Shown one piece after another: positions 41,354 to 49,655 of a stretch of DNA of 64,000 bases (position 1 is the stretch's first letter; each line of letters begins with the position of its first letter). The translations under genes were made by a program, and so were the position numbers. This DNA is from Gemmatimonadaceae bacterium (GTDB lineage: Bacteria > Gemmatimonadota > Gemmatimonadetes > Gemmatimonadales > Gemmatimonadaceae). The stretch covers positions 124,001-188,000 of the forward strand of contig WYBP01000022.1 in assembly GCA_011525845.1 (NCBI GenBank), in the 5' to 3' direction. Under the pieces are notes generated by a model. It had not been told where the DNA came from, made no database searches, and saw only the letters and a list, made by a program, of their open reading frames with translations.

Positions 41354-41452
41354 TGTTCCAGGTCCCGGAGGGCTTCGGCCCGCCAACTCCGCCAGGGCCG
41401 AAAGGCAGCAACGGTACGTGGTGTCCATCGTCGCTCCGTCAGGCCTGGAACA
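41354..41452 (+). ncRNA. ffs: Bacterial small SRP RNA (4.5S type)
   Basis: This is the RNA core of the signal recognition particle, binding Ffh to target membrane proteins. The ends pair: TGTTCCAGG (41354-41362) with CCTGGAACA (41444-41452). The conserved Ffh-binding domain is present as CCAGGGCCGAAAGGCAGCA (41392-41410), with a GAAA tetraloop and the AGCA asymmetric-loop strand. At 99 nt it fits the small bacterial form lacking an Alu domain. It lies 82 nt before dnaX, a common neighbour in bacteria. Confidence 0.88.
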
Positions 41453-44540: not shown

Positions 44541-45026
44541 ATGGCGGTCGGTTCGGCAAGCTGGTCCTTCACGGAAGAAGACTTCAACGCCATCACGGCG
44601 ACCCTGCAGCGGTTCCTCGGGGAGACCAACGCGCGCTGCGCGCTCCTCGTAGATCGTTCGGGGCAGCTCATCGCGACCGTCGGGGAGCAGCCCACCTTCG
44701 ACCCGACCGCGTTCGCCACGCTCACCGCGGCCGACTTCTCGGCCAACGACCAGCTCGCCAAGCTCATCGGCGAGTCGGACTTCAACTCGCTCTTCCACCA
44801 GGGCGAGAAGGAGTCGATGTACCTCGCCGACATCGCCCGACGGGTCATCCTCGTGGCGCTGTTCGACAACCGGACCACCCTCGGCCTCGTCCGACTCAAG
44901 ATCAAGGACACCGTGCTCGAACTCACCAAGCTCTTCCACGACGTCTTCACGCGCGGCAAGTCGGCTGCGTCCAAGCCCGGGCTCCTCTCCGGCGCGGACG
45001 ACGAGATCGACCAGCTGTTCGGGTAA
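44541..45026 (+). CDS. mglB: Roadblock/LC7-domain protein (MglB)
   Basis: A 161-residue protein of the roadblock/LC7 fold. The core runs from [16 protein letters not shown] through [18 protein letters not shown] to [20 protein letters not shown]. MglB is a homodimeric activator of the small GTPase MglA, together setting cell polarity or localising motility machinery in Myxococcus and Thermus. Here it directly precedes mglA by 11 nt. The C-terminal tail of about 20 residues ([10 protein letters not shown]-like) is acidic. Confidence 0.9.
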
Positions 45027-45037
45027 GGAGAACAGCC

Positions 45038-45715
<678 letters not shown>

Positions 45716-46419: not shown

Positions 46420-47670
46420 GTGGACGTCGAACTCGTCTCCATCGGTGACGAGCTCCTGCTCGGCTTCACCGTCGACACGAACACCGCGCACTTCGCGCGC
46501 GCGGCGGCGGACCACGGGATCCAGGTCGTGCGGCGGAGCACCGTGGGGGACGACGCCGACGCCATCACGAGCGTGGTGCGCGATGCCCTCGCGCGCACCG
46601 GCGCGGTGATCACCTGCGGCGGGCTCGGCCCCACCGCCGACGACCGCACCAAGCCGACGCTCGCCGCGCTCTTCGGGCGCACGATGCGCTTCGACGACGC
46701 CATCTGGGAGTCGCTCCGCACGCGCTGGAAGGCGCGCGGATGGCCCGGGGAGATCCCCGAGACGAACCGCGAACAGGCGATGGTCCCCGAGGGGGCCACC
46801 GTGCTCCCGAACGCCCACGGCTCGGCGCCCGGCATCTGGCTCGAGGACCACGACGGGCGCTGGGTGGCGATGCTCCCCGGCGTGCCCCGAGAGTTCCTCG
46901 GGATGATGCGCGACACGCTCCTCCCGCGGCTCGCGGCCCGCGGCGCGGGCGGGACGGTGATCCGCTCCCGCACGCTCCGCACGCAGGGGATCGCGGAGAG
47001 CGCGCTCGCCGAGACGCTGGGGGAGCTCGCGAAGGATCCGCTCGGCGTGCCCCTCGCCTTCATGCCCGGCTACGAGGGCGTGGACCTGCGCCTCACGGTG
47101 CGCGGCGTGAGCCCCGCCGTCGCCGACGAACGGCTCGCGGCCGCCGCCGACGCGCTGCGGGCGCGGGTGGGGAAGTGGGTGTACGGGGAAGGGGACGAGG
47201 ACCTGGCGACGCTGGTGCTCGACCGGCTCCGCGCGCGCGGGATGCGCATCGCGGTGGCCGAGAGCTGCACGGGCGGGATGCTCGGCATGCGGCTCACCGC
47301 GATCCCCGGGGCGAGCGACCGGTTCGTGGGCGGGGTGATCGCCTACGACAACGCGGTGAAGGTGCGCGAGCTCGGCGTGCGGGAGGCGACGCTCGAGGCC
47401 GTGGGCGCGGTGAGCGAGGAGGTCGCGCGGGAGATGGCGAGTGGCGTGCGCGCGCGCTTCGGGGTGGAGGTGGGGGTGAGCATCACCGGCGTGGCCGGGC
47501 CGGGGGGCGGCACGCCGGAGAAGCCGGTGGGGACCTTCTGCGTGGCCGTGGACGTGCAGGGCGAGGTGCGCTCCCTCCGGACCGCCGGGGTGGGAGACCG
47601 CCACGAGATCCGGCAGCGGGCGTCGCAGGGGGCGCTGAGCCTGCTGCGGCGCGTGCTCGCCAGGGAGTGA
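46420..47670 (+). CDS. cinA: CinA-family competence/damage-inducible protein
   Basis: A 416-residue two-domain protein. The N-terminal MoaB/MoeA-like domain has VSIGDELLLGFTVDTNTA and TCGGLGPTADDRTKPTLA, acting as an ADP-ribose/nucleotide pyrophosphatase. The C-terminal PncC-like deamidase has AVAESCTGGMLGMRLT, GGVIAYDNAVKVRELGV and SITGVAGPGGGTPEKPVGTF. CinA recycles pyridine nucleotides and is often near recA or pgsA, as here. The GTG start lies 7 nt after pgsA. Confidence 0.94.
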   Translation: MDVELVSIGDELLLGFTVDTNTAHFARAAADHGIQVVRRSTVGDDADAITSVVRDALARTGAVITCGGLGPTADDRTKPTLAALFGRTMRFDDAIWESLRTRWKARGWPGEIPETNREQAMVPEGATVLPNAHGSAPGIWLEDHDGRWVAMLPGVPREFLGMMRDTLLPRLAARGAGGTVIRSRTLRTQGIAESALAETLGELAKDPLGVPLAFMPGYEGVDLRLTVRGVSPAVADERLAAAADALRARVGKWVYGEGDEDLATLVLDRLRARGMRIAVAESCTGGMLGMRLTAIPGASDRFVGGVIAYDNAVKVRELGVREATLEAVGAVSEEVAREMASGVRARFGVEVGVSITGVAGPGGGTPEKPVGTFCVAVDVQGEVRSLRTAGVGDRHEIRQRASQGALSLLRRVLARE

Positions 47671-47698
47671 GCGCGCCGCCCGCGCGGTGGCGCCCCCC

Positions 47699-47738
47699 GG
47701 CGCCCGCTGGCGCCCGCTGGCGCGCGCCGGCGCCCGCT
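47699..47738. repeat. 10-bp tandem repeat, four units
   Basis: Units of GGCGCCCGCT occur at 47699, 47709 and 47729, with a degenerate copy (GGCGCGCGCC) at 47719. The array lies 29 nt after the cinA stop and upstream of the grpE regulatory region. Confidence 0.6.
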
Positions 47739-47742
47739 CCGA

Positions 47743-47801
47743 TCCAGTCAACCGAAACGACAGCCGGTTTCCGCCGTAGGGTGCGTATCTCCTTGACTGG
47801 A
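47743..47801. promoter_or_regulatory. Widely spaced inverted repeat upstream of grpE
   Basis: TCCAGTCAA (47743-47751) and TTGACTGGA (47793-47801) are perfect inverted 9-mers with centres 50 bp apart, close to five helical turns. They lie just upstream of the -24/-12 motif and could be sites for an activator or repressor. Confidence 0.4.
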
Positions 47802-47824
47802 CTGCAATTCCGGCATGTCCGGCC

Positions 47825-47839
47825 TGGCACGGCGGTTGC
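47825..47839 (+). promoter_or_regulatory. Sigma-54 (-24/-12) promoter of grpE-dnaJ
   Basis: TGGCAC (47825-47830), 5 nt, then TTGC (47836-47839) matches the RpoN consensus TGGCAC-N5-TTGC at every position. The predicted start is near 47851, 22 nt before the grpE ATG. No sigma-70 pair of similar quality is visible here. Confidence 0.5.
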
Positions 47840-47872
47840 CCCGGAGATGGCTGTCCGGCGAACTTTGACCCT

Positions 47873-48511
47873 ATGAAAGACGAACGCGTGAAACAGGATC
47901 CGACCAAGACCAGCTCCTTCGAGAACCGGGCCGTCGACGCGACGGATGCCGAGTCCGACGCCGCGGCCTCCGCCGCGGATGCGGGCGACGTGATCGACGA
48001 GGACGCGACCGGCTCCACCGGCGAGCACATGATCGTCGGCGAGGAGGCCGGCCTCGTGACCTCGGCGCTGCAGCACGAGCTCGCGGAGCAGAAGGAGAAG
48101 TACGTGCGGCTCTACGCGGAGTTCGAGAACTTCCGGCGCCGCGCGGTGAAGGACCGGCAGGACGCCGAGCACCGCGGGATGGGGAACCTGCTGCGCGGGC
48201 TGCTCGAGTCGCTCGACGACCTCGCGCGGGTGGCGCACATGACGCCGGCGAAGTCCGACACGGCGACGGTGCTGGAGGGGGTGGCGCTGGTGGAGCGCAA
48301 GCTGCTCAAGTCGCTCGCGGGGCACGGGCTCGAGGTGGTGGATCCCAAGGGACACCCCTTCGACCCGGCGCTGCACGAGGCGATCTCGACGGCTCCGGCG
48401 GCGAGCAAGGAGGAGGACCACCTGGTCGCCCAGGTGTTCCAGGTCGGCTATGTCTTCAACGGCACACTCCTCCGTCCCGCCCGCGTCGTGGTGACGCAGT
48501 GGAACGGGTGA
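47873..48511 (+). CDS. grpE: Nucleotide exchange factor GrpE
   Basis: A 212-residue DnaK co-chaperone. An acidic, low-complexity N-terminus (about 60 residues rich in Asp/Ala/Ser) precedes the long dimerisation helix (LQHELAEQKEKYVRLYAEFENFRRR). The beta domain holds the GrpE signature, seen as VALVERKLLKSLAGHGLEVV, PFDPALHEAIST and VAQVFQVGYVFNGTLLRPARV. It releases ADP from DnaK. dnaJ follows after 19 nt; dnaK itself is not in the window. A sigma-54-type promoter motif lies 34 nt upstream. Confidence 0.95.
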   Translation: MKDERVKQDPTKTSSFENRAVDATDAESDAAASAADAGDVIDEDATGSTGEHMIVGEEAGLVTSALQHELAEQKEKYVRLYAEFENFRRRAVKDRQDAEHRGMGNLLRGLLESLDDLARVAHMTPAKSDTATVLEGVALVERKLLKSLAGHGLEVVDPKGHPFDPALHEAISTAPAASKEEDHLVAQVFQVGYVFNGTLLRPARVVVTQWNG

Positions 48512-48530: not shown

Positions 48531-49655
48531 ATGGCCCAGAAGGACTTCTACGCCGTCCTCGGCGTGAGCGCGTCCGCCACCGCGGACGAGATCAAGAAGC
48601 AGTACCGGCGCCTCGCGAAGCAGTACCACCCCGACACGAACAAGGGGGACGCGAAGTCGGCCGACCGCTTCAAGGAGATCTCCGAGGCGTACAACGTCCT
48701 GGGGGACGCCGAGAAGCGGAAGCAGTACGACGAGATGCGGCGACTCGGCGCGTTCGACCCGTTCACGCGGTCGCGGCCCGGCGGGGCGCGCCCGGGCGCG
48801 GGCTCCGCGGGGCGCGCGCAGACCGGCGGCGCGCGGGTGGAGGACATCGACATCGGCGGGTTCGGCGGGCTCGGCGACCTGTTCAGCTCGATGTTCGGCG
48901 GCGGGGCGCGCGGCCCGCGGCCGAGCGGTCCGGAGAAGGGGCAGAGCGTCGAGACCACGCTCGAGGTCCCCTTCCGCGTGGCCGTGCTCGGCGGCAAGGT
49001 GCCGATCGAGCTCGAGGTGAACGAGGAGTGCGGGACCTGCGGGGGCTCGGGCGCGGCGAAGGGTGCACGCCTGCAGACCTGCCCGGAGTGCTCGGGGCGC
49101 GGCACCATCTCGTTCGGGCAGGGGTCGTTCGCCGTGAACCGTCCCTGCCCGCTCTGCCTCGGCAAGGGGCAGGTGCCCACCGAGAAGTGCGCCGCGTGCA
49201 ACGGCGCGGGGGCCTCCCGCTCGCACAAGAAGGTGTTGATCACCGTGCCCGAGGGGATCGAGAGCGGGTCGAAGATCCGGCTCAAGGGGCAGGGGGGGCG
49301 TGGCGTGCGGGGCGGCCCGAACGGGGACATCCTGATCACCTTCCAGGTGCGCGAGGACGCCGAGTGGGAGCGCGACGGGCTCGACCTGATCGTGCGCGCG
49401 CCGGTGAACATCGCGCAGGCCACGCTCGGCTCGCGCATCTCGGTGGTCACGCTCGACGAGAAGCGGGTGACGATCACGCTGCCCAAGGGCACGCCGAGCG
49501 GGAAGCGCTTCCGCGTGCGGGGGCAGGGGATCACCAAGGACAAGCAGAAGGGGGACCTGCTCGTGGAGATCCAGGTGGTGGTGCCGGAGACGCTCACGGC
49601 GGAGCAGGAGAAGCTGATGAAGCAGTTCGCGGCGGCGGGCGGGCTCGAGTACTGA
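48531..49655 (+). CDS. dnaJ: Chaperone DnaJ
   Basis: A 374-residue class A J-protein. The J domain has the HPD tripeptide in KQYHPDTNKGDAKS. A Gly/Phe-rich segment follows (DIGGFGGLGDLFSSMFGGG). Four CxxCxGxG-type zinc repeats come next: CGTCGGSG, CPECSGRG, CPLCLGKG and CAACNGAG, then the two client-binding beta domains. It stimulates the DnaK ATPase and delivers unfolded proteins. It is co-transcribed with grpE. Confidence 0.96.
   Translation: MAQKDFYAVLGVSASATADEIKKQYRRLAKQYHPDTNKGDAKSADRFKEISEAYNVLGDAEKRKQYDEMRRLGAFDPFTRSRPGGARPGAGSAGRAQTGGARVEDIDIGGFGGLGDLFSSMFGGGARGPRPSGPEKGQSVETTLEVPFRVAVLGGKVPIELEVNEECGTCGGSGAAKGARLQTCPECSGRGTISFGQGSFAVNRPCPLCLGKGQVPTEKCAACNGAGASRSHKKVLITVPEGIESGSKIRLKGQGGRGVRGGPNGDILITFQVREDAEWERDGLDLIVRAPVNIAQATLGSRISVVTLDEKRVTITLPKGTPSGKRFRVRGQGITKDKQKGDLLVEIQVVVPETLTAEQEKLMKQFAAAGGLEY

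Follow-up and report, generated by a model that had tools for sequence, protein, structure and literature searches.

Chaperone genes in textbook bacteria are controlled by the heat-shock switches sigma-32 and HrcA, both of which are titration circuits. Sigma-54 promoters are silent without an activator that uses ATP. The closest described system is that of Flavobacterium psychrophilum, a member of the Bacteroidota, where mapped 5' ends with -24/-12 (SM4) promoters lie before groES-groEL, lon, dnaK, grpE-dnaJ, htpG and clpB (PMC9723704). The organism has one sigma-54 and three PF00158 proteins, and in the parts of the report drawn on here neither an activator nor an activator site is named (PMC9723704). 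Predicted sigma-54 promoters of GroEL, GroES, IbpA, GrpE, DnaJ and DnaK are given as enriched in Planctomycetota and Bacteroidota in the aRpoNDB paper, whose claim for GrpE cites its reference 80, a Blattabacterium genome paper, and in whose main text 'Gemmatimonad' is absent (PMC12316311).

In Myxococcus xanthus the NtrC-like response regulator HsfA activates the heat-shock gene lonD. This system differs from the present one in that it concerns one protease gene and a hybrid kinase partner, with no DnaK-system regulon in the account of it consulted (PMC9109919). Rhodopirellula lends no support, as its rpoN did not respond visibly to heat shock according to PMC2754498, and in the parts of PMC3162934 drawn on here Gemmatimonas appears only for tree placement, with no dnaK. 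Among the titles and abstract openings listed, those on NtrX show no tie to a chaperone regulon, and those on sigma-54, RpoN and heat shock in Gemmatimonadetes, Gemmatimonas or Gemmatimonadota show nothing on such a regulon. A sigma-54 chaperone regulon is thus already known from Flavobacterium. What these sources do not describe in print are the features set out below: such a regulon in the Gemmatimonadota, the helical phasing of its palindrome, the separate control of groESL through CIRCE, and the activator proposed here.

The motif before grpE-dnaJ and its surroundings

The window, which is the whole stretch of 64,000 nucleotides that was analysed, contains a single exact TGGCAC-N5-TTGC when both strands are scanned, and this is located upstream of grpE (Table 1). 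The spacing of its -24 and -12 boxes is the GG-N10-GC of sigma-54-dependent promoters. A sequence-only reading of the DNA had claimed an exact match at all ten conserved positions, which the scan bears out, and had placed it 34 nt before grpE; the position before the gene stands, with the counted gap between the last base of the motif and the grpE ATG (47873) being 33 nt. The base following TTGC is a C. The same reading had expected about 0.1 such motifs by chance in the window, in agreement with the mean of 0.10 obtained with dinucleotide-shuffled windows. Since at least one motif occurred in 10 of the 100 shuffled windows, the motif by itself is weak evidence. By the usual -12 rule, transcription of grpE would start at about 47851.

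Table 1. Features of the window, with positions counted from its first nucleotide.
Feature	Position	Strand	Remarks
Putative sigma-54 -24/-12 promoter TGGCAC-GGCGG-TTGC (TGGCACGGCGGTTGC)	47825..47839	+	Exact match; GGCA-N6-TTGC core in 14 of 17 genus members
Imperfect palindrome TGCAATTCCGGCA, candidate activator site	47803..47815	+	9 nt upstream of -24 T; 10.2 bits
ECF-sigma-like promoter sequence GAAAC-N16-CGTA	47754..47778	+	94 nt before grpE ATG
Conserved leader CGGCGAACTTTGACCCT	47856..47872	+	Directly abuts grpE ATG; fills most of predicted 5' UTR
grpE	47873..48511	+	Pfam GrpE 9e-38
dnaJ	48531..49655	+	Pfam DnaJ_C 2.5e-37, DnaJ 5.2e-27; 19 nt after grpE
Bacterial small SRP RNA	41357-41452		Sole Rfam match in window
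Roadblock/LC7 protein gene, then small-GTPase-like ORF	44541-45715		Pfam 1.4e-10; pair MglB/MglA-like by eye

The grpE and dnaJ genes are probably carried on one transcript, and cinA lies upstream of them. The leader contains no Shine-Dalgarno sequence that could be recognised by eye, and CGAACT is present in 11 of the 14 aligned grpE leaders of the genus (counted by eye). A scan of 47650-47900 found no sigma-70 promoter in that interval and gave a terminator-like site on the minus strand at 47777-47760. The palindrome next to the motif is an imperfect one, scoring 10.2 bits compared with 19.7 at dnaK of the same genome, and it is spaced at 9 rather than 8 nt. Scored as a whole by the matrix derived from dnaK regions, the composite of palindrome and promoter in the window reaches 25.5 bits; the highest score among 474 shuffles was 8.9 bits.

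Further upstream is the GAAAC-N16-CGTA element, which resembles promoters of ECF sigma factors. With a spacer of N15-18 it is found in 19 of 58 grpE regions (12 of the 17 in the genus), in one of 50 dnaK regions, in one of 50 groES regions and in none of 1160 shuffles, and the element may represent a second promoter of grpE-dnaJ. The match overlaps the sigma-54 core in two genomes (G055 and G056), where it may be fortuitous. In G005 the ECF-like element and leader of grpE are kept without a TTGC core and the dnaK composite is intact, as if the putative sigma-54 and ECF-like promoters of grpE were separable. The sequence-only reading had mentioned neither the adjacent palindrome nor the ECF-like element further upstream, nor that dnaK and clpB share the composite.

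Distribution across the order and among chaperone genes

The genome from which the window is taken (3.58 Mb, 25 contigs, 99.77% complete) contains rpoN (PF04552, 5.6e-63) and nine strong PF00158 activator genes. Amongst the genomes searched, rpoN was found in 60 of 61, the one miss being 77% complete. GrpE was located in 58 of the 61, and scoring covered the upstream region of every one of these, together with dnaK regions from 50 of the 53 genomes with a match (G003, G004 and G029 were left out) and groES regions from 50 of 60. The eight named GrpE loci belong to metagenome-assembled genomes titled Gemmatimonadetes or Gemmatimonadaceae.

The exact TGGCAC-N5-TTGC motif occurs five times in the whole genome, and the reversed pattern once. 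Three of the five precede chaperone genes, namely grpE-dnaJ, groES (Cpn10, 2.1e-34) and a second dnaJ (DnaJ, 7.2e-29; motif at G000:C18:50318-50332, minus strand, L005). Another (L002, G000:C3:385678-385692) is 68 nt before a fructose-1,6-bisphosphatase gene (8.9e-70) and overlaps the end of the preceding ORF, and one of the five is inside an ORF. No palindrome was found at the fixed distance from the core at groES or the second dnaJ of this genome, the latter having been inspected by eye as well. The same genome contains a composite at dnaK, TGCCATTTTGGCG-N8-TGGCCCCACCCTTGC, scoring 38.2 bits, and one at clpB (Clp_N, 1.8e-23), CGCCGATTCGGCG-N9-GGGTCCGGACATTGC, about 105 nt before the likely ATG. 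The presence of sigma-54 promoter sequences at dnaK, grpE-dnaJ and clpB agrees with a regulon of Flavobacterium type, and the three loci also have sigma-54 promoters in the part of the F. psychrophilum report consulted (PMC9723704).

Of the 17 genomes of the genus, 14 have the GGCA-N6-TTGC core upstream of grpE (5 of 1700 shuffles), and 12 have the palindrome with it. The 14 aligned sequences had been selected by this core, so that the core columns of the alignment are invariant by construction. A strict rule, which asks for the core and, 7-10 nt away, a palindrome scoring 4 bits or more, holds at grpE in 33 of the 58 genomes of the order (0 of 1160 shuffles), at groES in 8 of 50 (1 of 1000) and at dnaK in 48 of 50 (3 of 1000), the last figure being partly circular because dnaK is the training set. 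The sequence-only reading had suggested looking for rpoN in the genome and for the motif before grpE in relatives, and at the level of sequence both searches support its interpretation of the site as a sigma-54 promoter.

The dnaK regions served to train the weight matrix (consensus TGCCAattTGGCa-N8-nGGtnCcgccCTTGCn), which was then applied to grpE and groES. The 99% shuffle threshold is exceeded by all 50 dnaK regions (the training set), 39 of 58 grpE regions and 14 of 50 groES regions, eight of which are above 20 bits. For grpE the strict count of 33 is preferable to the matrix count of 39, which includes four regions without GG or TTGC (G005, G028, G039 and G059), one without a palindrome (G007) and one where the palindrome is weak (G044, 3.8 bits). 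The palindrome lies 9 nt from the -24 T at grpE in 12 members of the genus and 8 nt from it in 17 of 21 others; the best dnaK sites have it at 8 nt in 44 of 50, a distance that the scan favours. The strict test fails in 25 of the 58 grpE regions, including five of the 17 in the genus (core absent in G001, G005 and G009, palindrome absent in G007 and G010), and grpE is therefore not always in the regulon.

When the 61 whole genomes were scanned, a first composite pattern gave 20 matches against three with the reversed pattern, of which 15 were at grpE, three at dnaK and two elsewhere. Two sites are without explanation, L094 and L075, the latter a composite-like site (G054:C175:7143-7178) 57 nt before a STAS-domain gene (1.4e-15). 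A looser pattern gave 60 matches against 26 (summed from the table) for its reverse, and these consist of 24 at dnaK, 10 at grpE, four at clpB, one at hsp20, one at groES, three in coding sequence before secA and 17 that are unassigned. The unassigned and coding matches, 20 of the 60, are about equal to the reversed control. Two of the unassigned (G007:C218 and G003:C23) resemble dnaK sites by their letters. The matches before secA in G005, G008 and G011 are inside an ORF read as nadD and were not counted as members. One clpB gene (L328; Clp_N, 1.4e-27) and one hsp20 gene (L332; HSP20, 1.3e-21) were confirmed with Pfam, the other clpB genes being recognised by eye. The regulon appears to consist of dnaK, grpE-dnaJ and clpB, with hsp20 and groES as members in some lineages.

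The groES regions are organised differently. CIRCE-like sequences are present in 47 of 50 groES regions, 0 of 50 dnaK regions and 0 of 58 grpE regions, and the sigma-70-like TTGAC-N16-19-TANNNT in 40 of 50, 0 of 50 and 0 of 58, respectively. Here these genomes depart from F. psychrophilum, whose sigma-54 regulon includes groESL in the part of the report consulted (PMC9723704). At groES of the present genome (L136 / L003, G000:C10) the exact sigma-54 core is nested within the sigma-70-like spacer (TTGACTGGCACACCCCTTGCCCCTACATT) and CIRCE follows, an arrangement that recurs in several members of the genus; the nested core may serve as an additional promoter that overlaps the first, or it may be a by-product. 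In three other genomes (G012, G004 and G013; L128, L130 and L142) groES is preceded by TGACAAAGTGGCG-N8-TGGYAC-N5-TTGC, the spacer of which holds a sigma-70-like TTGAC box.

Phased palindromes and the candidate activator

A draw of 81 genomes from the phylum provided 29 that belong to five families (f4-f8) outside the order, and all 29 dnaK regions were read. Each has a -24/-12 core within 300 nt of dnaK (in one case, L262, 250 nt from the gene), compared with 1-2 of 29 on the opposite strand and 45-65 of 2900 shuffles, depending on whether the tight or loose pattern is used. With the palindrome matrix alone, at least one palindrome is present in 28 of the 29 and at least two in 23, the corresponding values for shuffles being 5.5% and 0.2%. 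Measured to the -24 box, the palindromes fall at preferred distances of about 8-10, 19, 30, 39, 50, 60, 71 and 82 nt. These distances fit 8.7 + n x 10.5 nt with R = 0.73, a value reached by none of 5000 random sets, where the null was the highest R over periods of 9-12 in each uniform set. Collapsing the data to 40 distinct family-distance pairs gave an R of 0.66 (0/5000), although even this removes shared descent only in part. The phase of 8.7 nt is also that of the single palindrome in the order of the window. Such helical phasing is what one would expect of an activator site that depends on the face of the helix, and no other single observation supports the proposed mechanism as strongly. 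Four more dnaK regions of the window's own family, from outside the first set (L321-L324), comprise two with the core and palindromes 52-69 nt away, one with a palindrome alone and one with a core alone.

The protein that may bind the palindrome was sought by comparing the nine activators of this genome with those of six others (two to nine in each; one has two and three have three). Only the L007 type among the nine finds a reciprocal best hit in each of the six genomes, at 66-74% identity. It is a response regulator encoded at G000:C3:61776-63143 and is composed of receiver, sigma-54 activator and Fis-type helix-turn-helix domains. Residues 2-450, near its full length, match PDB 5m7n (1.5e-97), a 'Nitrogen assimilation regulatory protein' that we take to be NtrX. 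With at most the 27 best candidates scored per genome, 56 of 61 genomes have an L007-type protein that is at least 58% identical. It was missed in four genomes that are 78-89% complete and in G054, which is 97% complete and has the composite at dnaK and grpE, yet has a best match of only 47%; this would either count against the candidate or reflect an assembly gap.

The recognition helix of the L007 type, ETAR-x-x-x-MPRSNLY, is constant in the 28 loci that were read out of 30, these 28 having been picked by the letters PR[ST]NLY. As a test of autoregulation, palindromes above 12 bits were sought near rpoN and the nine activator genes of this genome, and none was found there; three of the 28 L007-type loci that were read have a palindrome above 9 bits in the 400 nt upstream (9.3, 10.4 and 14.8 bits). 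The L007-type gene at G059:C57:68326-69684 reads through one in-frame TGA. On balance the L007 type is the leading candidate for the activator of the palindrome, with a chance that we put slightly above even.

A proposed signal-gated chaperone regulon and its alternatives

From the sites, their conservation and helical phasing, and the rpoN and activator genes, we infer a mechanism in which sigma-54 RNA polymerase would sit as a closed complex on the -24/-12 boxes. An activator of the NtrC family of AAA+ proteins would occupy the palindrome TGCCA-N3-TGGCA from a constant side of the helix and, once activated, open this complex with ATP. The activating input is presumed to come by way of a two-component system in response to protein stress or stress on the envelope, and the NtrX-like response regulator at G000:C3:61776-63143 is the leading candidate for the activator. 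Control of groESL would lie mainly with a sigma-70-like promoter and CIRCE, and in the genus grpE would have a second, ECF-like promoter. It is very likely that the motif in the window functions as a promoter, and likely that the palindrome is an activator site. The best explanation overall, that the motif is a working sigma-54 promoter of grpE-dnaJ within a sigma-54 chaperone regulon of the Gemmatimonadota, is a probable one.

Classical control of grpE by HrcA/CIRCE or by sigma-32 is hardly credible: CIRCE is present in the genome, at groES, but the 58 grpE regions contain neither CIRCE-like sequences nor the sigma-32-like consensus pattern CTTGA[AT]-N11-17-C[CT][CT]CAT. A sigma-32 likeness noticed by eye near 47792-47818 was dropped, with the pattern at 0/58. 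It is also very unlikely that the motif is a chance match and that the ECF-like promoter alone drives grpE, as might be argued from the shuffled windows that contain such a motif (10 of 100) and from G005, where the ECF-like element and leader persist without a TTGC core. Against this, both the core and the palindrome are kept in further genera and families and also stand before dnaK and clpB.

More closely related to the proposed mechanism are two readings that differ in what binds the palindrome. If the palindrome were a repressor operator, the sigma-54 promoter would be combined with a repressor released by stress, and the single palindrome abutting the promoter, as seen at 8 nt for 44 of the 50 top-scoring dnaK sites, would suit such an operator too. 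This is unlikely, as the sites in other families are mostly tandem, with many 20-135 nt upstream, and helically phased, none of which a simple operator needs, and a sigma-54 promoter requires an activator in any case. The palindrome may instead be bound by another activator of the same family, for instance of the L008 or L009 type, or by several, with the rest of the best explanation left standing. This we regard as less probable but by no means negligible, given that the search for the L007 type missed G054 and that its choice comes from co-occurrence alone. Against it, reciprocal best hits are lacking for the L008 type in G001, G043 and G047 and for the L009 type in G013 and G022, although the composite is present at dnaK in G001, G043, G047 and G022 and at grpE in G013.

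With activation of grpE-dnaJ by sigma-54 and a palindrome-bound activator as the preferred reading, placing the DnaK system under sigma-54 would make it a stress response that is gated by a signal, with little leak and a two-component input. The regulon is presumably such a signal-gated response, and a link to heat is not among the evidence. The palindrome provides a predicted binding site on which a single protein can be assayed. For the Gemmatimonadota, a little-studied phylum of soil bacteria in which there is little molecular genetics, a clear prediction is that sigma-54 serves dnaK, grpE-dnaJ and clpB and that CIRCE serves groESL. Gemmatimonadota and Bacteroidota are united in one lineage. 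A wider proposal, to which we would give somewhat less than an even chance, is that of a proteostasis switch common to the whole phylum: the DnaK-GrpE-DnaJ-ClpB disaggregation machinery would answer to sigma-54 and a single NtrX-like phospho-activator rather than to sigma-32 or HrcA, and HrcA would keep groESL. Considered alongside Flavobacterium, such a switch could be an ancient character of the Gemmatimonadota-Bacteroidota lineage.
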